Under the pieces are notes generated by a model. It had not been told where the DNA came from. It ran no database searches and saw only the letters and a list, made by a program, of their open reading frames with translations. From contig DAOUVJ010000007.1 in the NCBI GenBank assembly GCA_030667705.1, positions 1-41,293 of the forward strand: a DNA stretch of 41,293 nt, in the 5' to 3' direction. Positions 11,445 through 12,952 of this stretch are shown here, piece after piece (position 1 is the stretch's first letter; each line of letters begins with the position of its first letter). The stretch is from Promethearchaeota archaeon (lineage in GTDB: Archaea > Asgardarchaeota > Lokiarchaeia > Sigyniarchaeales > SOKP01). The translations under genes were made by a program, and so were the position numbers.

Positions 11445-11464
11445 GCTTAGGAGTGAATAATAAA

Positions 11465-12952
11465 ATGGGAAAATTTGATTTTAGACCAAAAGGAGTAATG
11501 CCTGCAATGGTAACTCCCTTTAATAAAGATGAGTCGATAAACGAAGAACAATTAAGAAATTTAGTTAATCACTTCATTGACCAAGGGGTAACTGGATTAG
11601 TTCCATGTGGAACAACAGGAGAATTCGTCAACATGACTCTTGAAGAGCGATTGAAGGTAATTAAAATAGTGGTTGATGAAACTAACGGTAGAGTACCGGT
11701 AATAGCGGGTACAGGAGAATCCGGAACAAGAATGGTAATTGATTCGAGTAAAGCCGCAACTGATATAGGAGCTGATGCAGTTATCATAGTAACTCCTTAC
11801 TATCTCAAACCAAAAGCTAAGGGGTTGTATGATCATTATTTCACCATAGCCGAAAAAACAGACATTCCAATTGTACTTTATAACATTCCCGTTTGTACTG
11901 GAGTCGAGTTACCTTGGACAGTGGTAGAAGATTTGGTTGATATTGAAAATATTATTGCAATTAAAGATTCTAGTGGAGATTATAAGTATCATTCTGCACT
12001 TTTAGAAAAAGTTAGCGATAAGATTTCAGTCTTGATTGGATGGGATGAGTTAGTGCTGGGTGCATTAGCAGGTGGAGCTGCAGGATGCATCTTGGGATCA
12101 GCGAATGTTATTCCTAAAATATGGCTAGAATTATATGATCACGTTCAAAATAATCGCTTAACAGAAGCTCAAACACTACAAAAAAAGGTACAGAAATTAG
12201 CAAGGATGTTAATCAATTCAGGTGCATTAGGTGCTAAGGAATGCCTTAATTTCATGGGAATACCCGTAGGTATAACGCGTCAACCAATCATTTTAGGAGA
12301 TGCTCTTTCGTACGAGTTAAGAGATGAATTTCGCGTAGAATTAGAAAAATTAGGGTTGATAGAGAAGAAAGAGCTCAAGTTTGAGATTGGAGAAAAAGAA
12401 CTTAGTAGTCGCTTCTACTCTGTTGGTGTTACACCTGAAAAGATAGTCAATTTTGACTTAAAAGTTGGAGAGTCATTAGTAGGAAGTCGGGTAGAGTTAG
12501 CACATGTAGATCTTTTGATTGGAATGAAAGATGGTCCGGTAGGGGAAGGGTATGCAAGAGCATTAACTCATCCTGCTAAAGGAAAGGAAGGATTACAAGT
12601 AATTCTCGAACCAAACATGCAAGTAAAACCCGCAACAGTAATGATTCCGACTGTAAAAGTTACTTCTCTACGCCATGCAAGTTTGACCTATGGACCAGCG
12701 CAAGCTGCAGTTGCTAAAGCAGTCATGAAATGTGTTGAAGATGGAATATTACCAAAAGAAGCTTCTGAAGATATAGTAATAATAGCAAATGTCTTTGTTC
12801 ATCCTAGTGCAAGTAGCCGAAAAAGAGTTTTTATAAACAATTATAAAGCTACGAGAAATGCGATTCGAAAAGCGATGGAAGGTCTTCCTACGGTCGAGGA
12901 TGGAATTCTTTCAGCAGATAATGCTCGTCATCCATTCAGAAACGACCCCTAA
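11465..12952 (+). CDS. DapA-family aldolase fused to formaldehyde-activating enzyme (Fae)
   Basis: A 495-residue two-domain protein. Residues 1 to about 300 are a class I pyruvate aldolase of the DHDPS/KDG-aldolase family: PCGTTGE (47-53), YNIP with Tyr139, and AIKDSS with Schiff-base Lys167. The Arg that DHDPS has after YNxPS is absent (YNIPVCTG), so lysine biosynthesis is unlikely. After a linker (about 303-331), residues 332-495 match Fae throughout. VELAHVDLLIG carries the catalytic-type His347, followed by KPATVMIPTVKV, YGPAQAAVAKAV and EDIVIIANVFVHP. Fae condenses formaldehyde with tetrahydromethanopterin. The start is ATG 11465, because the Shine-Dalgarno TTAGGAG (11447-11453) overlaps the alternative GTG 11453. 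Inference: the aldolase releases or uses formaldehyde, which is channelled to Fae. Confidence 0.88.
   Translation: MGKFDFRPKGVMPAMVTPFNKDESINEEQLRNLVNHFIDQGVTGLVPCGTTGEFVNMTLEERLKVIKIVVDETNGRVPVIAGTGESGTRMVIDSSKAATDIGADAVIIVTPYYLKPKAKGLYDHYFTIAEKTDIPIVLYNIPVCTGVELPWTVVEDLVDIENIIAIKDSSGDYKYHSALLEKVSDKISVLIGWDELVLGALAGGAAGCILGSANVIPKIWLELYDHVQNNRLTEAQTLQKKVQKLARMLINSGALGAKECLNFMGIPVGITRQPIILGDALSYELRDEFRVELEKLGLIEKKELKFEIGEKELSSRFYSVGVTPEKIVNFDLKVGESLVGSRVELAHVDLLIGMKDGPVGEGYARALTHPAKGKEGLQVILEPNMQVKPATVMIPTVKVTSLRHASLTYGPAQAAVAKAVMKCVEDGILPKEASEDIVIIANVFVHPSASSRKRVFINNYKATRNAIRKAMEGLPTVEDGILSADNARHPFRNDP

Follow-up and report, generated by a model that had tools for sequence, protein, structure and literature searches.

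A conserved and apparently undescribed DapA-Fae fusion protein of Asgard archaea and its upstream partner gene

Analysis of the window, the whole 41,293-nucleotide stretch of DNA examined here, led to a gene in which a DapA-family class I aldolase is fused in frame to a formaldehyde-activating enzyme (Fae). The fusion is conserved in Lokiarchaeia and in other Asgard archaea and is apparently undescribed; our full-text searches of open-licence PMC papers found no description of it, in agreement with the novelty claimed in the original prediction. The functional unit extends upstream to a second gene, here called P428, which that prediction had not reported. Our main reading, to which we assign a probability of about 0.5, is that the fusion acts as a bifunctional formaldehyde-transfer enzyme, in which 4-hydroxy-2-oxobutanoate would be cleaved and the released formaldehyde loaded by Fae, with P428 supplying or interconverting the oxo acid.

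Domain organization of the fusion gene

The window is contig C141 of a 3.10 Mb assembly (G000, 92.5% complete); its nearest named relatives are Lokiarchaeota MAGs. The fusion frame runs without interruption from an ATG at 11,465 to the stop at 12,952. The open reading frame list places the start earlier, at a GTG (11,453), but the ATG is the better start because of the purine-rich AGGAG motif in front of it (Table 1). Pfam detected a DHDPS domain at residues 8-276 (9.3e-77, 258 bits) and a Fae domain at residues 334-491 (7.8e-55, 185.7 bits against a cut-off of 27). NCBIfam agrees, with one_C_fae (TIGR03126) at 184.9 bits against a cut-off of 118 and the dapA model also above its cut-off. The earlier claim that one frame carries a complete aldolase and a complete Fae was thus borne out, coordinates included. 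The linker, put at about 29 residues, is indeed some 27-29 residues long and corresponds to a low-confidence, presumably disordered stretch (304-330) of the AlphaFold model, whose mean pLDDT is 84.3. Foldseek returned DHDPS structures as the best PDB matches of this model (TMt 0.85-0.96 among the fifty matches listed). The C-terminal half is 34% identical to the Fae of Methylobacterium extorquens (1Y5Y/1Y60), with which it shares the full-length domain and the catalytic His, but it differs in being covalently attached to an aldolase and in the loss of that His from one tandem copy of family f28 (see below).

Table 1. Coordinates of the fusion gene, its parts, P428 and related features (window positions unless a locus is named).
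Feature	Position	Strand	Basis or remark
P428, upstream partner gene, 428 aa	10158..11444	+	Family searches, predicted structure, neighborhood; 20-base gap to the fusion
AGGAG, ribosome-binding-site-like, 5' of the fusion ATG	~11449..11453	+	Sequence
DapA-Fae fusion protein, 495 aa	11465..12952	+	Open frame, Pfam, NCBIfam, AlphaFold model, conserved loci
N-terminal DapA-family class I aldolase half, residues ~1-303	11465..12373	+	Pfam, Foldseek DHDPS matches, residue table
Linker, residues 304-330	12374..12454	+	pLDDT < 50
C-terminal Fae half with His347	12455..12949	+	Pfam 334-491; 55/161 residues identical to 1Y5Y
Further P428 copy	L210:1498-2760		
Further P428 copy	L212:11986-13257		
Divergent DapA-family protein, 348 aa	L160:3778-4824		Directly 5' of P428 in a Fae-less genome; PF00701 4e-15

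Distribution and ancestry of the fusion

The same architecture, which the original prediction had proposed to look for in Asgard proteomes, was found in related genomes. A scan of GTDB contigs gave 36 other full-length fusion loci in Lokiarchaeota/Lokiarchaeia records (75-92% identity), and searching 228 genomes of the phylum for Fae added further frames of 490-520 aa elsewhere. Reading of these frames showed the DapA-Fae order again in families f3, f8, f17, f18, f23, f26, and f28. An assembly artefact or a chance read-through, which has nothing in its favor beyond the single window, is therefore rejected as practically negligible in the face of 36 independent full-length loci and the identical architecture in other families.

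In the DapA tree, a branch with support 70 separates the aldolase halves of 29 fusion rows from standalone DapA, and the standalone Asgard DapAs form one group (support 100). The Fae domains of the Fae-HPS proteins also group together (support 100), and the Fae halves of the fusions lie outside that group. A short row placed among the fusions in the trees (L070) is a fusion truncated at the end of its contig. Since the aldolase halves branch apart from standalone DapA and the Fae halves apart from Fae-HPS, a single old fusion event is likely and is the simplest reading of these trees.

Fae-HPS is the nearest known arrangement. The source genome itself encodes one (L001:724-1992, PF08714 with PF00215), and its presence in Asgard archaea has already been described (PMC11291895). 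Both proteins tether Fae to a formaldehyde-handling aldolase, and Fae-HPS (NF009833, bifunctional formaldehyde-activating enzyme/3-hexulose-6-phosphate synthase) in the same genome provides a precedent for such a connection. Fae-HPS, however, has Fae at the N-terminus and, as its aldolase, a barrel of the OMP-decarboxylase/HUMPS family, whereas our fusion has Fae at the C-terminus and an aldolase of the class I DapA type; the HPS domain PF00215 was not detected by Pfam in the fusion, which carries PF00701 instead.

Some lineages depart from the common pattern. Six f28 genomes (L243-L248) each have two adjacent fusion genes, and the Fae His is kept in one copy (6/6) and lost in the other (6/6), so that the tandem genes resemble a catalytic/non-catalytic pair. 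In f8, f18, and f23 (L141:2588-3526, L142, L143, and L144) the fusion lies near a conserved protein of 310-320 aa instead of P428; this protein gave no NCBIfam match, nor any Pfam match for the one member tested. One Lokiarchaeota chromosome retains no more of the fusion than a C-terminal fragment of 111 aa (L071:6013-6348), with P428 not adjacent, which looks like decay of the fusion/P428 pair.

Active-site residues

The aldolase half has the class I set of Thr50/Thr51, Tyr113, Tyr139, and Lys167. The GTTGE motif (residues 49-53), Tyr139, Lys167, and His347 stand where they had been predicted and are invariant or nearly so. Throughout the fusion rows the Schiff-base Lys, the proton-relay Tyr, and GTTGE/GSTGE are retained, Thr50 being Ser in f17 and f26 and position 113 being either Tyr or Phe. 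The TIM barrel with these residues, together with the Pfam and Foldseek results, places this half among the DapA/NAL class I pyruvate aldolases. His347, which we take to be the catalytic His of Fae, lies in an AHxDL motif and is kept in all 67 lokiarchaeal and 12 other fusion rows outside f28.

The fusions share the fold, the Schiff-base Lys, the Tyr, and GTTGE with DapA/DHDPS (4-hydroxy-tetrahydrodipicolinate synthase), but differ from it at the position of E. coli DHDPS Arg138, which presumably binds the carboxylate of aspartate semialdehyde. This position is occupied by Cys144 in the window, and by Cys in 40/40 lokiarchaeal fusion rows; the remaining 25 fusion rows have Cys, Val, or Leu. 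An equivalent Arg is thus found in none of the 65 fusion rows, against 18/18 standalone Asgard DapAs and 37/40 other standalone proteins. This distribution makes it very improbable that the aldolase half is a DHDPS, despite its score with the dapA model. A separate true DHDPS is encoded in most of the fusion-bearing lokiarchaeal genomes tested, and a role of the fusion as the DapA of lysine synthesis was rejected on both grounds.

The partner gene P428

At all 37 Lokiarchaeia loci with a readable upstream side, the window included, P428 lies immediately 5' of the fusion, while the other neighbors vary between these loci. In family f1, sets assigned by hand from the Fae and P428 searches comprise 38 genomes with both genes, two with P428 alone, two with the fusion alone, and 23 with neither (65 in total); in both P428-only genomes (G145 and G150) P428 is located at a contig end. 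Copies in other families of the phylum are mostly 62-79% identical to that of the window, and further copies come from a Bacillota MAG (65%) and a Polaromonas plasmid (51%); none was found in viral contigs. In f17 it is directly 5' of the fusion, as in Lokiarchaeia, and in f28 it is present together with the tandem fusions but unlinked to them. Two further genes are found close to P428 in f28 (L183, L184, and other loci), one for the S component of an ECF-type riboflavin transporter and one for a PALP enzyme that carries a PadR-like domain.

Across 25 P428 sequences 106 positions are invariant, yet a Pfam run over 23 members and the NCBIfam models gave no family, and a profile search of the PDB gave no identification. 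In the predicted structure (pLDDT 82.5) we discern a helical N-terminal domain followed by a TIM-barrel-like core. Foldseek against the PDB found nothing at E < 0.001, the best weak matches being MTHFR, ornithine 4,5-aminomutase, and enolases, and a local comparison of the P428 profile with glutamate-mutase E and MTHFR sequences was negative.

In the fusion-free families f11, f12, and f15 a class I aminotransferase is located 3' of P428, and in f12 and f15 a homoserine dehydrogenase and an AFOR-family protein (aldehyde:ferredoxin oxidoreductase) mostly belong to the cluster as well. This arrangement was seen in Fae-less Asgard families at L155-L157, L162, L170-L179, and L196-L207, though fewer than four of these genes are seen at some of the loci. 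DapA is absent altogether from the six f12/f15 genomes tested. In G088, which gave no Fae match, P428 is preceded, at a distance of 17 bases, by a divergent DapA-family gene (Table 1). The contexts can be linked by homoserine, its transamination product 4-hydroxy-2-oxobutanoate, and the retro-aldol reaction of that oxo acid, and they appear to point to homoserine/4-hydroxy-2-oxobutanoate chemistry.

Proposed function and alternatives

In the mechanism that we propose, the substrate would be a 2-oxo acid of the hydroxymethyl type, with 4-hydroxy-2-oxobutanoate the most likely one; P428 would provide or interconvert it, and Lys167 would form a Schiff base with it. Retro-aldol cleavage would free formaldehyde and leave pyruvate, and the tethered Fae half would join the formaldehyde to tetrahydromethanopterin (H4MPT), giving methylene-H4MPT; this capture would keep free formaldehyde low and pull the cleavage forward. 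Substrate, direction, channelling, and the role of P428 are all inferred here. Loss of the DHDPS Arg and the P428 contexts in fusion-free Asgard lineages lend independent circumstantial support to the chemistry of the original prediction, namely cleavage of 4-hydroxy-2-oxobutanoate to pyruvate and formaldehyde with transfer to Fae. Fae accelerates the condensation of formaldehyde with H4MPT, whose equilibrium favors the condensed product, and for this reason, along with the Fae-HPS precedent, cleavage is the favored direction. The oligomeric states do not match, Fae of M. extorquens being pentameric and DapA usually tetrameric, which complicates a simple channel in the fusion. Other points count against our reading: homoserine dehydrogenase is often absent from fusion-bearing lokiarchaeal genomes, the homoserine link rests on the gene neighborhood of P428 and not on that of the fusion, and other small 2-oxo acids would fit the active-site residues.

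The reaction itself has precedents. A class I 4-hydroxy-2-oxoglutarate aldolase and other pyruvate aldolases accept formaldehyde, and class I pyruvate aldolases can join it to pyruvate (PMC7918591, PMC10127515), and 4-hydroxy-2-oxobutanoate is an intermediate of an engineered homoserine cycle (PMC8879981). Among known systems, the YfaU/RhmA "HOB aldolase", HBPA, class I 4-hydroxy-2-oxoglutarate aldolase, and the engineered cycle share the proposed reaction in one direction or the other (PMC8879981, PMC7918591, PMC10127515). Those are side activities without Fae, whereas a dedicated natural fusion is proposed here.

The same enzyme could run in the opposite direction, with Fae taking formaldehyde from methylene-H4MPT and the aldolase adding it to pyruvate, so that transamination of the resulting 4-hydroxy-2-oxobutanoate would yield homoserine and replace the aspartate/homoserine dehydrogenase route. 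Aldolases are known to catalyze such an addition. Of the f1 genomes with a completeness of at least 90%, 12/13 without the fusion and 9/29 with it have a homoserine dehydrogenase (Fisher p = 5e-4, kinship ignored), which speaks for this direction to the extent that counts blind to kinship can; the f12/f15 operon, moreover, could supply the same oxo acid from aspartate. However, many lokiarchaeal genomes without homoserine dehydrogenase also have no strong threonine synthase match, which speaks against a need for homoserine, and the favored condensation with H4MPT pulls towards cleavage. We regard synthesis in this direction as less likely, yet as a serious rival.

Only a little more doubtful is cleavage of another hydroxymethyl 2-oxo acid, again with transfer to Fae; ketopantoate and branched 4-hydroxy-2-oxo acids are examples. 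The side chain is not fixed by the active-site residues, and in the Bacillota MAG PanB (ketopantoate hydroxymethyltransferase) follows P428 by 183 bases. This is a single case, though, and that PanB is the sole copy of its genome and may be an ordinary pantothenate gene. PanB is encoded separately in 33/45 genomes, most fusion-bearing Lokiarchaeia among them, so that a replacement is not needed and was rejected as a general role of the fusion. Since most fusion-bearing lokiarchaeal genomes carry both a true DHDPS and PanB, neither lysine nor pantothenate explains the fusion.

An ordinary sugar-acid aldolase of the KDG/KDPG type, or a relict DapA, whose attached Fae merely detoxifies background formaldehyde, seems improbable. 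The DapA superfamily holds many such activities, and a glucuronate isomerase (UxaC) is located 3' of the fusion both in the window and in L033, its closest relative. That adjacency is confined to these two loci, and a functional link was rejected; it is P428, and not UxaC, that is conserved beside the fusion. Moreover, the KDG/KDPG aldolase model (NF040954) gave 122.5 bits against a cut-off of 390, the NAL model of NCBIfam also remained far below its cut-off, and the fusion is maintained across distant families.

Biological significance

No other known archaea are as closely related to eukaryotes as the Asgard archaea, whose carbon metabolism is inferred almost solely from genomes. Through a conserved fusion that connects a pyruvate aldolase with the H4MPT pathway, C1 units would gain a new entry or exit, and the fusion is accompanied by a deeply conserved partner without a known family; both proteins look soluble, expressible, and assayable. 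More tentatively, and with less confidence than the cleavage reading itself, Asgard archaea may possess a natural 4-hydroxy-2-oxobutanoate node, at which P428 would make or use the oxo acid and different lineages would link it either to tetrahydromethanopterin-bound C1 units through the fusion, or to aspartate semialdehyde through the aminotransferase, homoserine dehydrogenase, and AFOR. If this is true, the chemistry of the engineers' homoserine cycle would occur naturally.
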